From assembly GCA_937122485.1 (NCBI GenBank), contig CAKZKH010000240.1:1-32134 (forward strand): a stretch of DNA of 32,134 nucleotides, given 5' to 3'. Below, in pieces: positions 745 through 23,056 of the stretch. This DNA is from an uncultured bacterium (GTDB taxonomy: Bacteria > Bipolaricaulota > Bipolaricaulia > Bipolaricaulales > Bipolaricaulaceae). The notes beneath the pieces are model-generated. The model did not search any database. It was not told the origin of the DNA and worked only from the letters and a program-made list of their open reading frames with translations. A program made the position numbers and the translations under genes. Within the stretch, counting starts at the first letter, position 1. Each line of letters opens with the position of its first letter.

Positions 745-2610
745 ATGCGAAAGTTCTTTGTCCTTCTTTTGTTCGTTCTGGCCTTTGTGCCGGCCTGGGC
801 TGCCGAGCGGGGCCCCATCAGCATCCGCTCCGACGCGGACTTCACAGAAGCCAACGGGGTTGTGGGCGGGCAAGGGACCCCCGAAGACCCCTACCTCATC
901 GTGGGTTGGACCATCCAGGTCGGCACAGGCGCGCCCTACGGGATCTACATGGAGAAGACCACCGCCTCGTTTGTGGTCCGGGGCTGCGTCATCGTAGGGG
1001 CGATGAACCCCAACGGGGCGGCCATCTACCTGGCTGACGTCCAAGGTGGAGTGGTCGAGGACTGCCTCCTCCGGGACTGCCTCAACGGCGTGGTGATCCA
1101 AACCTCCCAGGACGTAACCGTGCGGGACATGTTCCTGGGCGTGCGGGGCGTGGGCCTGCGGGTTCTCGGGGCCCAACCCGAGCACTTCCGCCATGACATC
1201 GCCCCCACCTCCACCGTGAACGGAAACCCCATCTACTACTACTACGGGGCGAAAGACCTCGATCTCAGCGACCTTTCTGGCGGACACATCACCCTGGCCA
1301 ACTGCGAGAACGTGACCGTCCGCAAGGCCAAGGTGGACCAAGGGGACGGTATCACCGTGGCCTTCAGCCGCAAGATCCGCATCGAGGGGGCGGACCTGTC
1401 CCGGGCCCGCAGCCACGGGATCTTGGTCCTTTCCTCGCCGGGCACCGTGGTAACCCGCTGCGACCGCATCGCCAACTCCGCCCAGGCCGGCGTAGCCCTA
1501 GTTCTCTCCGACGACAGCCGGGTGGAATACTGCGGGATCTACGCCAACCAGGTCGGGGTGTACCTCAATGCCTCCGACCGGGTGCGCGTTTTCAATTCCT
1601 ACTTTGCGGCCAACCCCCTGGGGATCCGGGTGACCGGGGCTTGCGAGGATGTGCTGATCCAGGACGGACTGTTCTACCAAAACCGGCAAGACATCGAGGT
1701 GGAGTCCGCCGTGAGACCGGTGGTGGAGCGGTGCGCGTTCGCCGAATCGGACATCGCCGTGTTTATGGGCAAAGGGGTCACCTACCCCCACGTCCTGTAT
1801 TGCACGATGGTCCAGACCGGGTATGGGATCTCCAACTTCGGTTCCTACGGCCTGTTCCAGCGCAACCTCATCACCCGGGCCAACATCGCCATCATCTTTG
1901 AGGAGGCCTACAAAGAGGCCACACCCACCGGGAACGTAGTGCACGCCAACGTGATCTACAACTCCACCGATGCCTTCTACTTGGGAACGGACACCGTGGG
2001 GAACACGGTGTACGAGAACCTGGTGTGGAAGGTGATGAGGCCGGCTCGGGACCTGGGCAAGGACAACCGCTGGAGCCTGTACGGGCGGGGGAACTGGTAC
2101 TCCGACTACAAGGGTCAGGACGAAAACAACGACGGCATCGGGGATACCCCTGTGGTGTTCGGGGGAGGGGCTCAGGACACGGCCCCGCTCATGAGCCGGG
2201 CGTTCTACCCAGGGTTCCCGGGCGTGGTGGGCTCCATGGAAGAGCGGACCATGGCTGTGGAGGACGACACAGGCCAACGCCTGACCCTCCAGGTGCGGAT
2301 CGCCGATCAGGCCCACGAACGGTTCACTGGGTTCCAGGCCCTCCCTCCCGAGCTGGCCCAGGACTTGGCCATCCTGTTCGTGTTTGAACAGCCTACGCCC
2401 AGCCAGTTCCACATGCGCAACGTGTTCCTCCCGCTGGATATCGTGTTCTGGAGCGACAAAGGCGAGTACCTGGGGCGCAACAGGATGGAGGCCGATTCCA
2501 AGGACCTATACGGGGCCGCCAGCCTGTTCCTCCTGGCCTTGGAGGTCCCGGCAGGGAAGATCGAGGCGGCGGGCCTCAAGCCCCCGTTCAAGCTGATCCA
2601 AAAGCTGTGA
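745..2610 (+). CDS. Exported NosD-like right-handed beta-helix protein fused to DUF192
   Basis: A 621-residue predicted exported protein. Residues 1-21 form a signal peptide (MRKFF, hydrophobic run, then WAA). Residues ~35-450 consist of short repeating beta-strand turns (VVEDCLL, VTVRDM, VRVFNSYF and similar) typical of right-handed parallel beta-helix/CASH proteins. Around 455-485 lies the NosD-family closing signature NWYSDYKGQDENNDGIGDTP followed by APLM. Residues ~500-621 match DUF192: an Arg-Leu-rich beta core, LAILFVF, FHMRNVFLPLDIVFW. NosD is a periplasmic accessory protein for nitrous oxide reductase, but such helices also serve as surface carbohydrate-binding or lyase scaffolds, and no nos genes are nearby. 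ATG 745 is chosen over upstream codons because of the signal peptide and AAGGAGG at 734-740. The HAD gene starts within its stop codon. Confidence 0.85.
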   Translation: MRKFFVLLLFVLAFVPAWAAERGPISIRSDADFTEANGVVGGQGTPEDPYLIVGWTIQVGTGAPYGIYMEKTTASFVVRGCVIVGAMNPNGAAIYLADVQGGVVEDCLLRDCLNGVVIQTSQDVTVRDMFLGVRGVGLRVLGAQPEHFRHDIAPTSTVNGNPIYYYYGAKDLDLSDLSGGHITLANCENVTVRKAKVDQGDGITVAFSRKIRIEGADLSRARSHGILVLSSPGTVVTRCDRIANSAQAGVALVLSDDSRVEYCGIYANQVGVYLNASDRVRVFNSYFAANPLGIRVTGACEDVLIQDGLFYQNRQDIEVESAVRPVVERCAFAESDIAVFMGKGVTYPHVLYCTMVQTGYGISNFGSYGLFQRNLITRANIAIIFEEAYKEATPTGNVVHANVIYNSTDAFYLGTDTVGNTVYENLVWKVMRPARDLGKDNRWSLYGRGNWYSDYKGQDENNDGIGDTPVVFGGGAQDTAPLMSRAFYPGFPGVVGSMEERTMAVEDDTGQRLTLQVRIADQAHERFTGFQALPPELAQDLAILFVFEQPTPSQFHMRNVFLPLDIVFWSDKGEYLGRNRMEADSKDLYGAASLFLLALEVPAGKIEAAGLKPPFKLIQKL

Positions 2611-3266
2611 TCCGGGCCGTCTTCTTTGACCTGGACGGGACCCTCGTCCGGTACAAGGGCGTGGAGTACGAGTCCAGCTGGGGGGCCATCGGCCTGGCTG
2701 CAGGTCTTGGGCCCCAGTGGGACGCCCTCCTTGCCAAGTACAAGGGGCGGATGGAACTGTACGGGCAGTGGGTGGAGGAGTGCGCCGCCCTTCTCACGGG
2801 CCTTCCTGTGAAGACGGTGGAGGCGGGAATCTTCCCGCCTCCGTACGCCCAGGGGGCCCGCCAGGCCGTCCGCCAGCTCCGCCAAGAGGGGTACTTCCTG
2901 GGCATCGTGTCCTCCGGGGTGAGTCTCGTGGCCGAGCGAGCCCGGGACGAACTGGGGCTGCACTTTGCCGTGGCCAACGAGCTGGTGGTCCAGGACGGGC
3001 GGTTCACCGGACAAGCCGTGATTCGGGTAGACCTGGCCGGGAAGCTGCGGGCGGTGGAAGAGGAGGCCCACCGGCTGGGCTTGTCTCTGGACGAGGTGGC
3101 CTTCGTAGGTGACCACTTCAACGACATTCCGGTGTTGCAGGCCGTGGGTTGCGGAATCGCCCATGCTCCCAAGCATCCCGAGGCCGCCCGGGTGGCCCGG
3201 TTCGTGGTGGAAGACTTTCACCCCATCCCCGAGATCCTGCGCCAGCTCCGAGTTGACGGATTCTGA
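2607..3266 (+). CDS. HAD-superfamily phosphatase, SerB-like
   Basis: A 219-residue cytoplasmic HAD hydrolase. Motif I is FFDLDGT (nucleophile D8, acid/base D10), motif II is VSSG (S102/S103), motif III Lys is probably K147, and motif IV is VGDHFNDIPVL (D169, D173). The segment ANELVVQDGRFTGQ before motif III resembles phosphoserine phosphatase (SerB, subclass IB), so hydrolysis of phosphoserine or another small phosphomonoester is likely; specificity is not proven. The cap between motifs I and II (~18-90) is helical, as expected for type C1. The GTG start at 2607 overlaps the previous stop by 4 nt (GTGA), indicating translational coupling. A perfect hairpin-forming inverted repeat lies inside the gene at 2819-2842. 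Confidence 0.85.
   Translation: MIRAVFFDLDGTLVRYKGVEYESSWGAIGLAAGLGPQWDALLAKYKGRMELYGQWVEECAALLTGLPVKTVEAGIFPPPYAQGARQAVRQLRQEGYFLGIVSSGVSLVAERARDELGLHFAVANELVVQDGRFTGQAVIRVDLAGKLRAVEEEAHRLGLSLDEVAFVGDHFNDIPVLQAVGCGIAHAPKHPEAARVARFVVEDFHPIPEILRQLRVDGF
2819..2842. repeat. Intragenic 11-bp inverted repeat (hairpin) in the HAD gene
   Basis: GGAGGCGGGAA (2819-2829) and TTCCCGCCTCC (2832-2842) are perfect reverse complements with only TC between them. In RNA this gives about a 10-bp GC-rich stem with a 4-nt loop. There is no T-tract, so it is not a standard terminator. The codons read G-G-E/A-G-I-F-P-P in the cap domain. Confidence 0.7.
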
Positions 3267-3292: not shown

Positions 3293-4651
3293 ATGCCGCG
3301 TGCTGGAGGCAAAGAAGAGTGGGGCAAGCGCTGGCAACAGTTTCTGACCAGCGTCCCCGACCAGATGCTGCGCGCTTGTTTGCCCATCTCACCCGAAAAG
3401 GTCCGCTTGGACGGCAAATCCCTGGTCATCGAGGTCGACTCCGACTACAAGAGGGACTACGTTCGGCGCAAAGTGGAGAAGCTGGCCGATCCTGTCCGCC
3501 AGGTGTTTGGGGAGGTCGCGGTGGAGATCCTAGGGCCGGCCCGCAAGGCCGAGCCGGAGCTTCCCCTTGTGGAGGCCGTCAAGCGGCCCCCCGCCCCCCG
3601 CAGGGTCGCTGCCGCCCCAGCCAAGATCCTGGTCGTGGGGATTGGAACCGGAGGCATCAACGCCCTCCAGCGCATGCGCCAGCGCGACCCGGGAAGCGTG
3701 ATGTTCATCGCCATGGACACCGACAGCCAAGTGCTGTCCACCTGCCAAGCGGACGAGACCCTCCTTTTGGGGAACAAGACCACCCGGGGACGCAGCACCG
3801 GGGGCGACCCCGAGAAGGGCAAAAAGGCCGCCGAGGACGCCACCTGGGAAATCGAACAGCTCATCGGGGACGCCAACCTGGTGTTTCTCACCTGCGGGCT
3901 GGGCGGAGGTACGGGCACTGGAGCAGCCCCGGTGCTTGGCCAGATCGCCCGCCAGCGCAAAGCCCTCACCGTCGGGGTGGTCACCCTTCCGTTCTCCTTC
4001 GAGGGGGCGGTGCGCAAGCAACGGGCCGAGACAGGCCTGGCCCGCCTGGCCGAGAGAACCGACGTCCTGATCGTCATCCGCAACGACCGGCTGCTCGACA
4101 TGGCCCCGAACCTGTCGCTGCCCAAGGCCTTTGAGCTCGCCGATGAGGTGCTGCTCAAGGGCGTGCGGGGCGTGAGCGATCTCGTGACGGTCCCTGGGCT
4201 GGTGAACCTGGACTTCGCCGACGTGGCCGCCATCCTCCGCGGCGCGGGAACAGCCATGATGGGCACCGGGGAAGCCGCGGGAGAAAACCGAGCCCTCCGA
4301 GCAGCCAAGGCCGCGGTGTCCAACCCCCTCCTGGAAGGGGGAACCATCCAGGGCGCCCGGCGGGTGCTCCTCAACATCACCGGAGGACAGGACCTCACCC
4401 TCAACGAGGTCATCCAGGCCGCGGATTTCATCCGCAAGGCCACGGGCGTGGAGACCGACCTCACCTTCGGCGCTGTGGTCCGCCCGGAGCACGAGCACCG
4501 CGTGCACATCACCACCATCGCCGCAGACTTCAAACCCACCGCAACCCAGGAGGAAGAGAAACGGGAGAGGATCCGCCCGACGATCCCCCGCCGCTCCCCC
4601 GACGAGAACACCGACATCCCCACGTTCCTGCGGCGAAAAAGCGAGGATTAG
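3293..4651 (+). CDS. ftsZ: Cell-division GTPase FtsZ with a DnaA/DnaX-like N-terminal extension
   Basis: FtsZ polymerises with GTP into the Z-ring at the division site. Residues ~110-415 are the tubulin/FtsZ core: the first nucleotide loop GIGTGGINA (116-124; canonical is closer to GVGGGGSNA), tubulin signature GGGTGTG (204-210), VTLPFSFEG, NDRLLD, and the T7 catalytic loop NLDFAD (305-310). The C-terminal peptide DIPTFLRR (441-448) is the conserved FtsA/SepF/ZipA-binding tail, so this is a genuine FtsZ. Unusual is residues 1-80: a Trp-containing helix, LPISPEKV, a strand pair (LVIEVDS), a helix DYVRRKVEKLADPVRQVFG and a strand VAVEIL, resembling DnaA domain I or the DnaX C-terminal domain, followed by a Pro/Ala linker (81-109). 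FtsZ usually lacks this and is ~350-400 residues; here it is 452. The ATG has only a weak ribosome site. Confidence 0.93.
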   Translation: MPRAGGKEEWGKRWQQFLTSVPDQMLRACLPISPEKVRLDGKSLVIEVDSDYKRDYVRRKVEKLADPVRQVFGEVAVEILGPARKAEPELPLVEAVKRPPAPRRVAAAPAKILVVGIGTGGINALQRMRQRDPGSVMFIAMDTDSQVLSTCQADETLLLGNKTTRGRSTGGDPEKGKKAAEDATWEIEQLIGDANLVFLTCGLGGGTGTGAAPVLGQIARQRKALTVGVVTLPFSFEGAVRKQRAETGLARLAERTDVLIVIRNDRLLDMAPNLSLPKAFELADEVLLKGVRGVSDLVTVPGLVNLDFADVAAILRGAGTAMMGTGEAAGENRALRAAKAAVSNPLLEGGTIQGARRVLLNITGGQDLTLNEVIQAADFIRKATGVETDLTFGAVVRPEHEHRVHITTIAADFKPTATQEEEKRERIRPTIPRRSPDENTDIPTFLRRKSED

Positions 4652-4659
4652 GAGGAACC

Positions 4660-5373
4660 ATGAAGAGATGCCTAGTTCTGCTGACCGTGTTCACCTTGGG
4701 ATCTGGGGCCGGCCTGGCCCAAGCAAGCCTGGCTCGATTGGAGCAGGTGTTGTCGGACTGGCGGCTGGGCTGCTGGGGGTGCGGAACCCGGTTCAACTGG
4801 AGTGGGGAACAGTGGGCGGCGTTCACTGCGGGCCGCCTGTGCTCCTTGGGCTTTGCCGCCAAGCTTGCCAGTTCAGGAGGGGAATGGTGGGTTGTGGTAA
4901 CGCTGACTGACCCTGAGCCCAGGGTGATCCCCGTCCTTCCGGGCTTGCCCCCCACGGACAAAGCCGGGCAGTATGCCCAGGGCGTTTACCTCGGCCAGGT
5001 GGCCAGACTTCCCAGCGGAGCCTTCGATCCCAAGTACCTCAGCCCCACCACCCTGAACGAGCTCCCCCCCAACATTCCACCCTCGGTCAAGGTGCACTGG
5101 ACCCCACCCCAGGTGGAACCCGGGCAGGAAGTCCTGTTTTTCGCCGAGGTCGCCGATCCCGACGGGCAAGTGGTGTCCGTCACCTGGGACTTTGGGGAGG
5201 GCATGACCTCGAGCCTGTGGTCCGCCCCATTCGTGTTCCCTGAGTCAGGGACCTTCGAGGTGAGTGTGACGGTGGTGGACAACCTGGGCGCGGCGGTGAC
5301 CGCCCGAGTGAAGGTAAGTGTGGAGCGGTTTGCCCCGCCCCCCTCCGGTGGCGGATGCGGCTGTCAGCGCTAG
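4660..5373 (+). CDS. Secreted PKD-domain protein with a Cys-rich C-terminal tail
   Basis: A 237-residue exported protein. Residues 1-22 are a signal peptide ending near LAQA. A segment around residues 30-75 has C38xxC41 and many Trp. A PKD-type immunoglobulin-like domain spans ~148-223, recognised by ADPDGQVVSVTWDFGEG and the later FEVSVTVVDNLG; such domains serve protein-protein or carbohydrate contacts at the cell surface. The chain ends in PPPSGGGCGCQR, a Gly/Cys tail resembling the first half of some C-terminal sorting signals but without a following membrane helix. The ATG follows GGAGG at 4651-4655, which overlaps the ftsZ stop. The next gene begins inside this one (19-nt overlap), so the two are probably co-translated. 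The N-terminal half is not recognised. Confidence 0.75.
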   Translation: MKRCLVLLTVFTLGSGAGLAQASLARLEQVLSDWRLGCWGCGTRFNWSGEQWAAFTAGRLCSLGFAAKLASSGGEWWVVVTLTDPEPRVIPVLPGLPPTDKAGQYAQGVYLGQVARLPSGAFDPKYLSPTTLNELPPNIPPSVKVHWTPPQVEPGQEVLFFAEVADPDGQVVSVTWDFGEGMTSSLWSAPFVFPESGTFEVSVTVVDNLGAAVTARVKVSVERFAPPPSGGGCGCQR

Positions 5374-6677
5374 CCCTGGCCCTGGCCTGGGCCGTAAACG
5401 GCCTGGGAGCCGATCTCCGGTACAACCTCATCTTGGAGGTGGGGGAAACCGGGCAACTGCATGGTCAGGTCACGGTGAGCGGCGTGGCCCAAGGTTTTTG
5501 GAACGAGCTCGCCTTTCGCCTCTACCCGGCCGCCCAGGGGCCAAGCTGCCTCTTTGTCCGCTCGGCCCACGTGGGCAGCGAACGCACGGAGTGGTTTTCC
5601 TCCGATCCCACCACGGTCAGGGTGCCGCTCGAGCTCTCCCCGGGTCAGACCTACTCCGTGACGCTGGAGTTTGCCGGCCAGGTTCCCCCGTTCGGGGCCG
5701 GGGGCTACGGGATCTTTGCCCGAACCCCCACCACCCTCACCCTGGCCCAAGCCTATCCCATTCTGGCCGTGTGGGACGGGGGGTGGGTCATCACCCCTGC
5801 CTTGCCCTGGGGCGACGCCATTTTTGCCGAAGCGGCGGACTACACGGCGGAGATCCTGGCCCCGTTGGGGTGGACGGTGGTGGCCTCAGGGTCCGAGAAG
5901 CAGGTTGAGCCCGGACGGTGGCGGGTGGAGGGACAAAACTTGCGGGAACTCGGCCTGGTCCTCGTGCGAGGGTACGAGGTGGAGGAGACCTTCCAGGAGG
6001 GCGTCCAGCTGCGGAGCTTCTTCCCAACGAGCCTGGGGTACGGAGGAAGACAAGCCCTGGAGGTGGCAACCCAGTCCCTGGCCGCTTTCGACCCCCTGGG
6101 GGCTTTCCCATTCCTCGAGGTCGACCTCGTGGCCGTCCCCTTGGCTGGTGTGGCCGGTGTCGAGTACCCCGGGCTCATCCTGGCCCACGACCTCTACTAC
6201 GACCCAAGCCGCGGCGATTCGTTCTTTTTCGCCATGGTGGTGGCCCATGAGCTCGCCCACCAGTTCTGGTACGCCGAGGTGGGCAGCAATCCCTGGAGCG
6301 AACCGTGGCTGGACGAGGCCCTCACCACCTACACCTCCGGCCTCTATTTCGCCGAGCAGGGCGAACTCCACCTCATCCTCAGCTATTGGGAACGTTCGGC
6401 CTCCTGGGGCCGGTGGGCCAACCCCCAGGCCGCGATCACCAGCCCTCTTTCCGCCTTCCCCGATGGGCGAGGGTACGGAGGGATCGTGTACTCAAGCGGG
6501 GCCCTGTGGTTCCGTAAGGTGGAAGCCCGCATGGGGAGCGAGAGTTTCTTCCGGGCCCTCCGCAGGTACCGGGAGGAGTTCCGCTGGCGCATCGCCACAG
6601 GAAAGGATCTCCTTCGCATCCTGAGCGAAGAGAGCGTGGACCCCCTTGGGGACCTGTTGTTGGAGCTGGGGAACTAG
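5355..6677 (+). CDS. M1-like (gluzincin) zinc metallopeptidase, exported
   Basis: A 440-residue protein with an N-terminal signal peptide (MRLSALALALAWAVNG) and an M1-type catalytic domain. The zinc site is HELAH (H298, E299, H302) with E321 in WLDEA exactly 18 residues later, giving HExxH-x18-E. Upstream is GVEYPG, the M1-like counterpart of the GAMEN exopeptidase loop in this bacterial subgroup, and Tyr residues in GYGGIVYSSG may supply the catalytic Tyr. It probably cleaves peptides in the periplasm or outside the cell. The C-terminal HEAT-like domain of full aminopeptidase N is missing, as in other short bacterial M1-like proteins. The start lies within the PKD gene; the stop overlaps the convergent permease stop through a shared CTAG (6674-6677). 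Confidence 0.88.
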   Translation: MRLSALALALAWAVNGLGADLRYNLILEVGETGQLHGQVTVSGVAQGFWNELAFRLYPAAQGPSCLFVRSAHVGSERTEWFSSDPTTVRVPLELSPGQTYSVTLEFAGQVPPFGAGGYGIFARTPTTLTLAQAYPILAVWDGGWVITPALPWGDAIFAEAADYTAEILAPLGWTVVASGSEKQVEPGRWRVEGQNLRELGLVLVRGYEVEETFQEGVQLRSFFPTSLGYGGRQALEVATQSLAAFDPLGAFPFLEVDLVAVPLAGVAGVEYPGLILAHDLYYDPSRGDSFFFAMVVAHELAHQFWYAEVGSNPWSEPWLDEALTTYTSGLYFAEQGELHLILSYWERSASWGRWANPQAAITSPLSAFPDGRGYGGIVYSSGALWFRKVEARMGSESFFRALRRYREEFRWRIATGKDLLRILSEESVDPLGDLLLELGN

Positions 6678-18922: not shown

Positions 18923-19618
18923 TCAGCGGGGGACGGCCGCCCGGTCCAAGATCTTCTTGACCGTCATAGCCTCCCAGCGGCCGCCCGTCTTGGTGGGCAC
19001 CTTCTGGCGCCGCAGCTCGGCGGCGATCTGCCGATAACTCTTGCCCTTGGCCCGCAGACTGCGCATGAGGGCCAGAGCCTGAAGCTCTTCAGGGACAGGG
19101 ACGAGGTCCTCGTCCACCCGGCGGAACCCGTAGGGTTCGGGACCGTACACCTTCCCGTTCTGCCGCTTGTAGCGCAGGGCAAGCTTGGTGCGCTCCCCGA
19201 TGAGGTTCCGCTCCATCTCGGCCACCCCGGCCATGATGGTGAGGAAAAACCGCCCCATGGCCGATTGGGTGTTGATCGCCTGGCCGCCTTGGTCCACGAG
19301 ATGCAGGGCGATGCCCGCTCGGTCCCAGTCCCGAACCACGGTCAAGCAGTCGATGGCGTCGCGGAACAGCCGGTCCAGCTTCAGGGCCACCACGTGCGTG
19401 ACTTCCTGGCCATCCACGAGTTGGAGGAGACGGGCGCCTTCCTTCCGTTCGGCCAAGGGTTTGCCGGCGCTGACCCCCTCCTCGGCCAGGATGTCCACGA
19501 GGTCCAGCCGAGCGAGCTGGCAGTAAGCCCGGATGCGCTCGGCCTGGGCTGCCAAAGACACCCCTTCGCTGGCCTGCTCTTCCGTGGACACCCGGGCATA
19601 TCCCAGGGCTTTAGGCAT
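18923..19618 (-). CDS. Serine recombinase (resolvase/invertase family)
   Basis: A 231-residue site-specific recombinase. The N-terminal catalytic domain begins LGYARVSTEEQ with nucleophile S11, followed by ALKLDRLFRD (the conserved Leu-Asp-Arg-Leu-x-Arg block) and GRFFLTIMAGVAEMERNLIGE, leading into the long E helix. The C-terminal part (~150-231: GPEPYGFRR, KGKSYRQIAAELRRQKVPTK, WEAMTVKKIL) is a helix-turn-helix DNA-binding region like the start of the 'Recombinase' domain. Size fits a resolvase/invertase rather than a large phage integrase. ATG 19618 is preceded by a G-rich ribosome site embedded in a palindrome; an alternative TTG at 19645 would fall inside the inverted repeat upstream. 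No transposase, terminal inverted repeats or other mobile genes are seen next to it, so it may be a stand-alone chromosomal recombinase. Confidence 0.9.
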   Translation of the reverse strand: MPKALGYARVSTEEQASEGVSLAAQAERIRAYCQLARLDLVDILAEEGVSAGKPLAERKEGARLLQLVDGQEVTHVVALKLDRLFRDAIDCLTVVRDWDRAGIALHLVDQGGQAINTQSAMGRFFLTIMAGVAEMERNLIGERTKLALRYKRQNGKVYGPEPYGFRRVDEDLVPVPEELQALALMRSLRAKGKSYRQIAAELRRQKVPTKTGGRWEAMTVKKILDRAAVPR

Positions 19619-19630
19619 GGGGGATCCCCC
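19619..19630. repeat. GGGGGATCCCCC palindrome over the recombinase start region
   Basis: A perfect 12-bp palindrome directly adjoining the ATG (19618). On the mRNA, the C-run just before the start codon can pair with the G-rich ribosome site upstream, leaving a GGAT-type loop, so it could keep translation of the recombinase low. Confidence 0.6.
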
Positions 19631-19634
19631 CCCT

Positions 19635-19664
19635 CCCGTAAACAACCGCCCCCTCGTTTACGGG
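19635..19664. repeat. Perfect 9-bp inverted repeat upstream of the recombinase (candidate crossover/operator site)
   Basis: CCCGTAAAC (19635-19643) and GTTTACGGG (19656-19664) are exact reverse complements with a 12-nt spacer, 30 bp overall. It is 17-46 nt upstream of the recombinase ATG. Dimer-binding sites of serine resolvases and invertases are typically 26-30 bp inverted repeats and often lie upstream of the recombinase gene, where they also autoregulate it. I found no second copy of the arms in this window. Confidence 0.6.
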
Positions 19665-19722
19665 TCCAAACCACCGCCGCCCTTTTCCCCACGAACTCCA
19701 AGGCCTCCCCCTCGTCAAAACC

Positions 19723-20484
19723 TCAGGCCAGGTCATAGCGCTCGATGATCTTCTTCTCCTCCCCCTCGATTTCCGCGGACACCTCGATGTACTCCCGCAA
19801 CCCGGAGGTGTTCAGCTTCTCCTTGAGGAGGTTGTCCAGCTGGAAGATCCCCGCGGAGTTCGTCATCCGCACGTGGATGTGCACGGGTTTCTCCGTCCCA
19901 GGGCGAAGCTGAACCTTGTCGATGGCCAGGGCGGACACGCTGTGGATGGTGGGTTTACCTACCCGGAACGGCACCCGGGCCCGCCCCTTCTCCATGTCCA
20001 GGGCGTCCGCCACCTTGAGGACCCCTGCCTCCACGGTCAGGGGCCGAACCTCCGCTTGGTGGGCCCAAATGGCATGAAGCACCTCGGCCGTGACGACGGT
20101 CTTGGTGGGCTCCTCGTACACCCCAGCCAGCAGCTGGTCCAACATGCCCACGGCCCACACCAAGGAGAAGAGTTCGTGGTCGTCCCGGTGCACGGCGTGC
20201 CCCACGTCGTGGAGGGCTGAACCCAAGGCCACCACCACCTGGGCGTCCTCGTAGCCCAGGCCGTGGTCGGCCACCCCCAGCTTGACCCCTGCCTTGTGGA
20301 GGAGGTCCAACAGCTTCAGGGCGATATCCATGACGATGCGGACGTGGGTGGGGCCGTGGTCGTTGATGCACAAGCGATCGATGGCCACGATGTTGGAGCA
20401 CACCCAGAGCGCCCGCAACCGCGCCGACCCGGCGATGGCCGCCTTGACCTTCTTGAGCTTCTCCCCCTGGTTCACGGCGGCCAT
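19723..20484 (-). CDS. HD-domain metal-dependent phosphohydrolase
   Basis: A 253-residue cytoplasmic protein. The HD signature is spread over NDHGPTHVRIV (H43, H47), ALHDVGH (H92, D93, H96), the distal His in AEVLHAIWAHQ, and the terminal Asp in KVADALDMEKGR. Such enzymes hydrolyse phosphomono- or diesters, often nucleotides or cyclic nucleotides; substrate is unknown. The C-terminal ~80 residues (VQLRPGTEKPVHIHVRM, IIERYDL) form a beta-rich domain seen in a conserved archaeal/bacterial HD subgroup. ATG 20484 has an excellent GGAGG a few nt upstream and lies 5 nt after the stop of the winged-helix gene, so the two form an operon. A longer ATG-equivalent start at 20508 would run into that gene and is rejected. 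Confidence 0.85.
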   Translation of the reverse strand: MAAVNQGEKLKKVKAAIAGSARLRALWVCSNIVAIDRLCINDHGPTHVRIVMDIALKLLDLLHKAGVKLGVADHGLGYEDAQVVVALGSALHDVGHAVHRDDHELFSLVWAVGMLDQLLAGVYEEPTKTVVTAEVLHAIWAHQAEVRPLTVEAGVLKVADALDMEKGRARVPFRVGKPTIHSVSALAIDKVQLRPGTEKPVHIHVRMTNSAGIFQLDNLLKEKLNTSGLREYIEVSAEIEGEEKKIIERYDLA

Positions 20485-20489
20485 TGTCC

Positions 20490-20915
20490 TCACCTCCACC
20501 GCTCCCACCAGGCCACCTGTCTTCTCTCCCGGAGAGACGCTTCCAGGGCGGCCACCCGCTCCTCCAACCGCCGCAGGTCCTCCGCGAGGTGCTCAACCCA
20601 CCTGGACCACCCCTCTCCTTCCTCGGCTTTGACCAGGTTTTGCTCACCTTGGTTCGCAACTCCAATTCTTGTATCGTTCTCCCTCTCTTGCCGAAAGCGT
20701 ATGACCCGCGACGCTTCAGCAAGGGTATGTCCCGTTTCGACCAGCGCCTGGACGTCCCTCAGCACGGCCAGCCCCTCCTCGGTGACGAGCATCTGGTTGT
20801 TGGGACCGCGGCGGATAAAACCCGCGAGGAGGTCCCGCACAGCGTTAATCCTGTTCCTCACTTGGTGCTCCGTGCTCAAGCGCAGCAACTGAACCAGCTC
20901 GGCCACGGTGTACAC
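20490..20915 (-). CDS. Small DNA-binding protein (winged helix/MerR-like) with C-terminal coiled coil
   Basis: A 141-residue protein. Residues 1-75 look like a helix-turn-helix/winged-helix module: YTVAELVQLLRLSTEHQVRNR as the first helices, then GFIRRGPNNQMLVTEEGLAV as a wing, then a helix with TLAEASRVI. Residues ~105-135 form a leucine-heptad coiled coil (WVEHLAEDLRRLEERVAALE), suitable for dimerisation, ending in a Trp/Arg-rich tail. This arrangement resembles MerR-type regulators, though I cannot place it in a named family. GTG 20915 is chosen because AAAGGAGG lies 7 nt upstream and upstream codons overlap mutL as antisense shadow. It is co-directional and nearly contiguous with the HD phosphohydrolase, divergent from mutL. 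Confidence 0.75.
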   Translation of the reverse strand: MYTVAELVQLLRLSTEHQVRNRINAVRDLLAGFIRRGPNNQMLVTEEGLAVLRDVQALVETGHTLAEASRVIRFRQERENDTRIGVANQGEQNLVKAEEGEGWSRWVEHLAEDLRRLEERVAALEASLRERRQVAWWERWR

Positions 20916-21014: not shown

Positions 21015-22670
21015 ATGGGCATCCATCGGCTGAGCGAAGAGGTGATCCGCAAGATCGCCGCTGGGGAGGTGGTGGAGCGCCCAGCCTCGGTGGCCAAGGA
21101 GCTCGTGGAGAACAGTTTGGACGCCGAGGCCCAACAGGTTGGCGTGGACGTGGAGGGCGGGGGACTGGTCCTCCTCCGCGTCAGCGACGATGGCCACGGA
21201 ATGAGCCCCAACGACCTTCGCCTGGCCATCGAACGCCATACCACAAGCAAACTTCGCACGGAGGAGGACCTTCGCCACATCCGGACCCTGGGGTTCCGGG
21301 GCGAGGCCTTGGCTTCCATTTGCGCGGTGGCCCAGGTCCGCCTGGTGTCCCGAGCCCGGGGGGCGGACGAAGGCCAGGAGCTGGAGGTCCACGGAGGCCA
21401 GCGCGTGCTCGATCGCCCCTGCGGGCGGGCCGTGGGCACCACCGTGGAGGTTCGGAACCTCTTTTTCAACGTCCCAGCCCGGCGGCAGTTCTTGGACAGT
21501 GCAACCGGGGAGGCTCGCCACGTCCTGGGTGTGCTGCGCCGCCTGGTCCTTGCCCACCCCGAGGTGGCCTTCGCCGTCTCCTCCGAGGGGCGGAGGACGC
21601 TGGACGTGGCCCAAGCCAAGGATCCGGCCGAGCGGATTGCCCAGATCTATGGCCGAGACCTCACCGGCCGCCTGATGTACGCCGAGGTCCAGGAGCCGGG
21701 ACTGCACCTCCAGGCGTGGTTTGGCCCTCCCGAACTGAGCCGGCCGACCCGGGTGGACCAGCACCTGTTCCTCTCCGGCCGCCCGGTTCGACTGGGGAGC
21801 TTGGGGGTGGCGATCCACCAGGCCTATGCCCGTTGGCTGCCGCGGGGGCAGTACCCCATCTTTTTCCTATACCTGGACGCTGATCCTCAGGTTGTGGACG
21901 TGAACGTCCATCCCCGCAAGGAAGAGGTGCGGTTCCGTGCCGAGGGGGCGGTGATGGACCTGCTGCGACGGGCAGCCTTGCGGGCCTTGGGGACCCGTTT
22001 GACCGCTATCCAGCCCCCCGTGGCCCACGGAGCACCCCCCGTCCAGCCCGAGCTGCGACCGTCTTCGCCCCAGCCCGCCCCGCCCCTGTGGCCGGAAAAG
22101 GTCCCCGCGCACCGGCCGTGGCGCGTGTTGGGACAGGTCCACTCCAGCTTCATCCTCGTGGAGGGGGAGGAAGGACTGGAGATCGTGGACCAGCATGCGG
22201 CCCACGAGCGGGTGCTGTTCGAGCGGTACCGGGACGGGATGGGCGTGCCCAGCCAGGAGCTCCTGGTGCCGGTGCAGATCGAGGTGCCGTTCGACCGGGC
22301 CGAGGCCCTGCGCCGGGCCCTGCCGGACCTGGCCCAGATTGGGGTGCTGCTTGAACCCTTCGGGGAGCGGGCGTTTCTTCTCCGGGGATGGCCAGCGCCT
22401 CTGGCCGATCGCCAGTCGCGGTTGGGGTTCCTCGAGCCGGTGGCCGCGGTGGCTGAACGGCTTGTGGAGGGCGAGCCGCCCCTGCGGGAGCTGTGGCGGG
22501 AGGTGGCCTGCGCCGCGGCCATCACCGCCGGGGAGACGTTGAGCCCGGCCGAGCAGGAGGCCCTTATCGAACGGTGGAAGGCCACCCAAGAGCCCGCCCG
22601 CTGCCCCCATGGGCGGCCCGTGGTGCTCCGGCTCCCTTGGGAGCGTCTGGCCCACGAACTGGGGAGGTAG
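21015..22670 (+). CDS. mutL: DNA mismatch repair protein MutL (endonuclease-type)
   Basis: A 551-residue mismatch-repair ATPase/endonuclease that acts after MutS. The N-terminal GHKL ATPase has KIAAGEVVERPASVAKELVE, SLDAEAQQVGV, VSDDGHGM, and TLGFRGEALASI; NLFFNVPARRQFL and VDVNVHPRKEEVRF mark the transducer domain. A Pro-rich linker (~335-370) leads to a C-terminal domain with DQHAAHERVLFE, an exact DQHA-x2-E-x4-E metal site, plus ACAAAI and CPHGRP. The intact motif indicates latent nicking activity, as in bacteria lacking MutH. Length is somewhat short (typical 550-650). The start is ATG 21015 with only a weak GAGAG site. MutS is not in the window. Confidence 0.97.
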   Translation: MGIHRLSEEVIRKIAAGEVVERPASVAKELVENSLDAEAQQVGVDVEGGGLVLLRVSDDGHGMSPNDLRLAIERHTTSKLRTEEDLRHIRTLGFRGEALASICAVAQVRLVSRARGADEGQELEVHGGQRVLDRPCGRAVGTTVEVRNLFFNVPARRQFLDSATGEARHVLGVLRRLVLAHPEVAFAVSSEGRRTLDVAQAKDPAERIAQIYGRDLTGRLMYAEVQEPGLHLQAWFGPPELSRPTRVDQHLFLSGRPVRLGSLGVAIHQAYARWLPRGQYPIFFLYLDADPQVVDVNVHPRKEEVRFRAEGAVMDLLRRAALRALGTRLTAIQPPVAHGAPPVQPELRPSSPQPAPPLWPEKVPAHRPWRVLGQVHSSFILVEGEEGLEIVDQHAAHERVLFERYRDGMGVPSQELLVPVQIEVPFDRAEALRRALPDLAQIGVLLEPFGERAFLLRGWPAPLADRQSRLGFLEPVAAVAERLVEGEPPLRELWREVACAAAITAGETLSPAEQEALIERWKATQEPARCPHGRPVVLRLPWERLAHELGR

Positions 22671-22795
22671 GCCGGGCCGAAGGTTTCATCGGGCTCGCCC
22701 GGAGCACCCCCGAACGTACGTGCGATCCCACCCCCACTGCGGTGTGTTGTCCCAGAAAAAGGGCAACGCTAGAATGCCTGACCAAGGAGGCAAAC
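22671..22795 (+). other. Intergenic region mutL-spoVS
   Basis: 125 nt containing a small hairpin (CGGGC-TC-GCCCG, 22690-22701) without T-tract, then the spoVS promoter and its AAGGAGG ribosome site (22784-22790). It is the largest gap on this strand in the window; no small gene or RNA was recognised. Confidence 0.5.
22747..22775 (+). promoter_or_regulatory. Promoter of the spoVS-argS-ftsY operon
   Basis: TTGTCC (22747-22752) and TAGAAT (22770-22775) with a 17-nt spacer; the -10 box matches 5 of 6 and the -35 box 4 of 6. Transcription would begin near 22782, just ahead of AAGGAGG. An A-run (22756-22760) sits in the spacer. Confidence 0.6.
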
Positions 22796-23056
22796 ATGGA
22801 GATCCTCAAAGTCGCGGCTACTTCCGATCCCAACGCCGTGGCCGGGGCCATTGCTGGGGCCCTGGAGTCCAGCGGCATCGTCGAGGCCCACGCCATCGGC
22901 GCGGGGGCCGTCAACCAGGCCGTGAAGGCCATCGCCATTGCCCGCCGCCTCATCGAGCGCGAGGGAGAACCGGAAATCAAGGTCGTCCCCGGGTTCATCG
23001 ACGTGGACATCGGGGGCGAGGCCAAGACCGGTGTGCGGTTCGTGATCCAGCGGTAA
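22796..23056 (+). CDS. spoVS: SpoVS-family protein
   Basis: An 86-residue protein, the same length as Bacillus SpoVS, with the family pattern MEILKVAATSDPNAVAGAIA, AIGAGAVNQAVKAIAIARR and PGFIDVDIGGEAKTGVRFVI. SpoVS is an Alba-like small protein affecting sporulation and septation in Bacillus, but it also occurs in non-sporulating thermophiles, where its role is unclear and nucleic-acid binding is suspected. It has its own promoter and a strong ribosome site (AAGGAGG, 5 nt before ATG), and its stop overlaps argS by 1 nt (TAATG), so it is co-transcribed with translation and secretion genes. Confidence 0.95.
   Translation: MEILKVAATSDPNAVAGAIAGALESSGIVEAHAIGAGAVNQAVKAIAIARRLIEREGEPEIKVVPGFIDVDIGGEAKTGVRFVIQR

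Follow-up and report, generated by a model that had tools for sequence, protein, structure and literature searches.

A duplicated FtsZ of the Bipolaricaulota gained an N-terminal domain once and has since been passed on by vertical descent, alongside the ordinary FtsZ, in three families of this phylum. The added domain is very likely a new branch of the superfamily that comprises DnaA domain I, the DnaX C-terminal domain (DnaX_C), and DciA, with DnaX_C as its nearest relative in sequence. We refer to the ordinary protein as FtsZ1 and to the extended one as FtsZ2. The gene under study, ftsZ2, lies at 3293..4651 on the + strand of a 32,134-nucleotide stretch of DNA from an uncultured member of the Bipolaricaulaceae (hereafter, the window) and encodes 452 amino acids.

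Translation and Pfam searches placed an N-terminal extension of ~82 residues ahead of a complete FtsZ, with all parts on the + strand. The N-terminal domain (residues ~4–81; 3302..3535) was delimited by profiles, AlphaFold2, Foldseek, and conservation, and the flexible linker that follows (residues 82–110; 3536..3622) by pLDDT, alignment, and dN/dS. The GTPase domain (3623..4105) carries GIGTGGIN at T1 and GGGTGTG at T4 and matches the Pfam Tubulin/FtsZ family over residues 111–271 (1.7e-42, 146.3 bits against a cut-off of 33); the C-terminal domain (4247..4534) matches FtsZ_C over residues 319–414 (4.4e-26, 91.5 bits against a cut-off of 27). The T7 loop NLDFAD (NxDxxD) is present, as is a C-terminal peptide of the FtsA-binding type, DIPTFLRR (4613..4636), which is conserved in both FtsZ1 and FtsZ2. 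The original prediction, made by eye, had proposed a complete FtsZ with GGGTGTG, NLDFAD, and DIPTFLRR, preceded by an unusually long stretch before the nucleotide loop. Both points held: the P-loop begins ~115 residues from the start in FtsZ2 versus ~25 in this genome's FtsZ1. Within the open frame, no start codon precedes the ATG at 3293: the 12 codons upstream of it include no ATG, GTG, or TTG. The next in-frame ATG corresponds to residue 25, and initiation there would remove helix 1. In 68 genomes the extension and FtsZ are read in a single open frame, which rules out an artefact of frame or annotation. We regard this anatomy, together with the domain identity described below, as very likely correct.

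The prediction had not recognized that the gene encodes a second FtsZ. The source genome holds two FtsZ genes, and the other copy, on contig 21, directly follows ftsA and lacks the extension. Among 60 relatives, most members of family f1 have both genes, including the single-contig genomes G004 and G014. In a further genome (G016), ftsZ1 and ftsZ2 are about 7 kb apart, and the cluster upstream looks like murC-murB-ftsQ-ftsA-ftsZ1, the mur and ftsQ names being read from sequence starts and not from a family scan. In a tree of FtsZ cores, all 18 FtsZ2 sequences fell in one clade (support 100/100), and the FtsZ1 and FtsZ2 parts each showed the same split between f1 and f2 plus f7, the pattern expected from one duplication followed by vertical descent. 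The tree did not resolve how deep the duplication lies with respect to family f5, with a branch support of 86/66 at that point and a long E. coli outgroup. In the same tree, FtsZ2 evolves faster than FtsZ1.

Of 100 Bipolaricaulota genomes searched with a profile of the domain, 68 have it fused to FtsZ, distributed as 36/40 in f1, 30/33 in f2, 2/2 in f7, and 0/25 in the other families. The seven genomes of f1 and f2 without a match are draft assemblies, two of which (G017 and G057) hold an FtsZ2-like C-terminal piece. Every FtsZ2 match lay within one open frame of 428–508 amino acids, except for one at a contig edge (G008, 224 amino acids), and the sole match outside FtsZ in the 100 genomes was to a DnaX C-terminus (G070, 670-amino-acid frame, E 0.009). 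Across relatives, the extension aligns over its full length at 28%–55% identity, and eight residues (W14, D23, L26, C29, L30, P31, Y56, and K60) are invariant in 48 sequences. The domain is under purifying selection: of nine close pairs, eight gave dN/dS values of 0.06–0.40 and one gave 0. The linker is variable among relatives in sequence and in length (roughly 10–35 residues), with a dN/dS above that of the domain in most pairs, and residues 84–108 have a pLDDT below 50 and are disordered in the full-length model. In a pattern-based pass of GTDB genomes, matches came solely from Bipolaricaulota/Acetothermia. We found no instance of the domain in viruses, and on plasmids only FtsZ cores matched, none covering 80% of the query.

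Profile comparisons tie the domain to three replication-protein families. Single-sequence Pfam scans of its members gave best E-values of 4e-4 for DnaX_C, 0.005 for DnaA_N, and 0.008 for DciA, and they also matched the plant STICHEL DnaA_N-like domain; in an NCBIfam scan, DnaX models matched at 3e-5. When we used hhalign to compare the FtsZ2 domain with DnaX_C, DnaA_N, and DciA profiles built from sequences of this phylum, scores were 46.9 (95%), 32.9 (84%), and 25.8 (40%), respectively. Maxima from 150 column shuffles each were 19.4, 25.3, and 20.2, and a reversed-profile control scored 12.5–14.2, which together rule out chance resemblance. The known relatives DnaX_C and DnaA_N score 46.1 against each other on this scale. 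The domain nonetheless belongs to none of the three families as curated. For DnaX_C (PF20964), the window protein scored 14.9 bits where the cut-off demands 26.2; for DnaA_N (PF11638), only 3 of 16 members matched at all, under the curated cut-off at their best; and for DciA (PF05258), the best member reached an E-value of 0.0078 and FtsZ2 genes fell under the cut-off in a whole-genome search.

Structure prediction gave a consistent picture. AlphaFold2 modeled residues 1–90 as a-a-b-b-a-a-b with a pLDDT of 81, from an alignment of 13 sequences, and the full-length model contains the same secondary-structure elements in this domain. In a Foldseek search of 350,542 PDB chains, the two best hits were DnaA domain I of Bacillus subtilis (4tps_D on top, TM 0.64/0.68); DciA took ranks three to five, and DnaA domain I of Mycoplasma genitalium and the tau domain of E. 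coli came lower. The E-values were modest (best 2.2e-3), but the top ranks are the same families that emerged from sequence. A PDB search by sequence profile returned nothing useful (best E 0.36). Assignment to the superfamily calls for a shared fold and profile similarity above shuffles, and the domain, by its predicted fold, has both; since the curated Pfam cut-offs are not, we call the domain a new, FtsZ-borne branch. The original prediction of a DnaA domain I/DnaX-like N-terminal domain thus held at the level of a superfamily relative and not of DnaA_N or DnaX_C membership. Profile, structural, and comparative checks, as well as a match to a profile built from the phylum's own DnaA_N domains, were all in its favor. 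Of the outcomes that would have refuted it, neither a lack of any profile or fold match nor relatives that start ftsZ near residue 105 with the extension unconserved was observed.

Each of the known relatives differs from the FtsZ2 domain in architecture. DnaX_C (tau) shares with it a pattern of W-x2-hL, strand, helix, and G-x-V-x-V/I, but forms the C terminus of an AAA+ clamp loader, a module absent from FtsZ2, where FtsZ stands instead. DnaA domain I, the best fold match, is likewise N-terminal and on a flexible linker, but is fused to AAA+ and DNA-binding domains rather than to FtsZ. DciA (DUF721) has the same fold, a weak profile match, and a similar positive charge; unlike the FtsZ2 domain, it is a stand-alone helicase loader, and the source genome has its own DciA beside DnaA. 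The archaeal and chloroplast FtsZ1/FtsZ2 pairs resemble the Bipolaricaulota pair in placing two FtsZs in one cell, and these proteins and canonical FtsZ have the GTPase, T7 loop, and C-terminal peptide in common, but no such added N-terminal domain appears for those pairs in the open-access literature that we searched. In Planctomycetes, it is a kinase domain that occupies the N terminus of the FtsZ-like 1 proteins (PMC2875224). Within that literature, we found nothing akin to an FtsZ with a replication-domain fusion or such an N-terminal extension, and no paper that joins Bipolaricaulota and FtsZ; the 2018 description of Ca. Bipolaricaulis does not mention FtsZ (PMC6092417). Subscription literature and UniProt-wide architectures were outside the scope of the search, and with this incompleteness in mind, the architecture is likely new.

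Conserved residues point to the surface that the domain might use. In E. coli DnaA, Trp6 of helix 1 is the key residue for domain I dimerization, and Glu21 and Phe46, with their neighbors Trp25, Asn44, and Trp50, form the opposite face that binds DnaB and DiaA (PMC5448010). Profile alignment places Trp6 at the invariant W14, Phe46 at F/Y52, and Trp50 at the invariant Y56, whereas Glu21, needed for DnaB binding in E. coli, aligns with Cys29. The domain therefore does not preserve the DnaB-binding pair, having Cys at the Glu21 position and F/Y at that of Phe46. Two features are new relative to DnaA domain I, namely a C-L-P that never varies and a basic helix (K53, R59, K60, and K63); this helix, which also bears Y56, is the most conserved one. 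Its net charge of +2.0 resembles that of DciA (+2.7), a protein that binds DnaB as well as single- and double-stranded DNA (PMC9865707), and differs from the acidic DnaX_C (−4.2) and from DnaA_N (−1.2). From the aligned DnaA positions, the Cys in place of Glu21, the basic helix, and the charge, we infer that the domain likely presents a protein- or DNA-docking face that does not simply reproduce the DnaB-binding one; no partner data bear on this inference.

Two alternatives arise from the same residues. The domain might be a self-association module without a replication partner: by pairing with itself, it would cross-link FtsZ2 filaments to one another, or FtsZ2 to FtsZ1, and so serve as an in-built bundler of the ZapA/SepF type. 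This is possible: W14, the counterpart of the dimerization Trp6, is invariant in 48/48 sequences, a flexible tether suits bundling, and the phylum lacks SepF matches. Against it, a buried Trp may be purely structural, and the most conserved helix is the basic one, whereas domain I of E. coli DnaA dimerizes elsewhere. Alternatively, the domain could bind DNA or RNA directly, in a KH-like or DciA-like manner, making FtsZ2 a nucleoid sensor and a fused counterpart of nucleoid occlusion. The conserved basic residues and DciA-like positive charge favor this idea, as does DNA binding by DciA, which has the same fold. We consider it unlikely, as no canonical KH GxxG loop was found in residues 12–82 of the window sequence, and no DNA binding is known for DnaX_C, whose profile is the closest.

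The genes around ftsZ2 do not identify a partner. Upstream lie a NosD/beta-helix protein with a C-terminal DUF192 domain (580–2610) and a HAD-family phosphatase (2607..3266, + strand), and downstream a PKD-domain protein and an M1-type peptidase (4660..6677, + strand), all kept within f1. In the f2 and f7 loci that we read, the neighbors differ from those of f1, and neither the PKD protein nor the M1 peptidase was seen beside ftsZ2. We rejected a conserved operon as a pointer to function, given that the neighbors (NosD/DUF192, HAD, PKD, M1 peptidase, and an amino-acid ABC transporter) are kept in f1 only; they are not replication genes. Elsewhere in the window, an ORF at 22493–23056, between mutL-like and arginyl-tRNA-synthetase-like ORFs, carries a SpoVS domain in its C-terminal part (3.9e-28), and its true start is probably downstream, near 22790. 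A serine recombinase with resolvase and recombinase domains (18923–20508) adjoins an HD-domain protein and may mark a small mobile element.

The replication proteins of the phylum were surveyed alongside. The idea that FtsZ2 replaces the DnaX domain is unsupported, because DnaX_C is present in most FtsZ2-bearing genomes; it is weak or undetected in parts of f1, including G000. DnaA frames in f3, f4, f6, f8, and f9 are mostly ~356–371 amino acids (for example, G040:C30:4601, G052:C16:45422, and G055:C1:68807) versus 446–514 in most of f1, f2, f5, and f7. No DnaA_N match exceeded the cut-off in genomes of those five families, in which DnaA domain I appears to be lost or unrecognizable. The same five families lack FtsZ2, and f5 has DnaA_N without FtsZ2; because the tree contains one loss and one gain, an association between DnaA_N and FtsZ2 is statistically untestable. 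One genome carries dnaA twice in tandem, the two copies matching with the same score (G078:C21:4232-6764), which reflects either a real duplication or an assembly artefact.

Several features bear on whether FtsZ2 acts in division. All 18 FtsZ2 sequences compared retain the NLDFAD T7 loop as well as the C-terminal peptide, and the T1 motif reads G-x-G-G-[IVL]-N versus the usual G-G-G-G-G-N of FtsZ1. GTP-dependent polymerization of FtsZ2 is inferred from sequence alone. In genus g5 (e.g., L006, L008, and L014), GKGTG[AGTS]G replaces GGGTGTG at T4 in FtsZ2 only, a change that, on sequence evidence, could possibly alter GTP binding or turnover. We weighed whether FtsZ2 forms a second cytoskeleton unrelated to division, for example in polar prosthecae, with the domain directing it to a protein of the envelope or the cell pole. 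Bipolar prosthecae do occur in the phylum, in Ca. Bipolaricaulis (PMC6092417), roles outside division have been suggested for FtsZ-like paralogs in other lineages (PMC2875224), and both the faster evolution of FtsZ2 and the g5 GKGTGxG loop would fit. The FtsA-binding tail and T7 loop retained throughout argue against it, as does the naming of a bactofilin and a penicillin-binding protein as the stalk genes (PMC6092417), and we deem it very unlikely.

Our preferred reading remains docking from within the division ring. Because FtsZ2 keeps the T7 loop, a near-canonical GTP pocket, and the FtsA-binding tail, we infer that it most likely enters the membrane-bound ring, polymerizing either together with FtsZ1 or alongside it. 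On its flexible linker, the N-terminal domain would then be a protein-docking adaptor facing the cytoplasm, and it would engage its partner by the surface near F/Y52, Y56, and the basic K53, R59, K60, and K63. The likeliest partner would be a replication or chromosome protein (DnaA, DnaB, DnaE/DnaX, or DciA) or DNA itself. Such docking would couple the position or timing of the ring to the replicating chromosome in a phylum without recognizable MinC or SepF; neither MinC_C nor SepF matched at E ≤ 0.001 in the 100 Bipolaricaulota genomes, while controls were detected. In the absence of partner-binding data, the link between replication factors and the Z-ring that the original prediction also proposed remains an inference, and we judge the anatomy and this docking, taken jointly, to fall a little short of probable. 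The substitution of Glu21 by Cys29, the missed Pfam cut-offs, the modest Foldseek E-values, the mere 13 sequences that underlie the model, and the non-replication neighbors weigh against docking, and a replication partner is not forced, as the superfamily fold also serves self-association.

How Z-ring assembly is coupled to chromosome replication is a long-standing question, and model species use separate inhibitors, namely Min and nucleoid occlusion, together with loose DnaA correlations. In the Bipolaricaulota, a replication-type interaction domain has been fused to a division GTPase and kept across several families, which suggests, by inference, that the division ring is linked physically and directly to chromosome replication. 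A bolder reading, that the fusion tethers the Z-ring to the replication initiator, the helicase, a polymerase component, or DNA, is a possibility; if it is true, these bacteria would have replaced Min- or SepF-type placement with a coupling of replication to division by a single protein.
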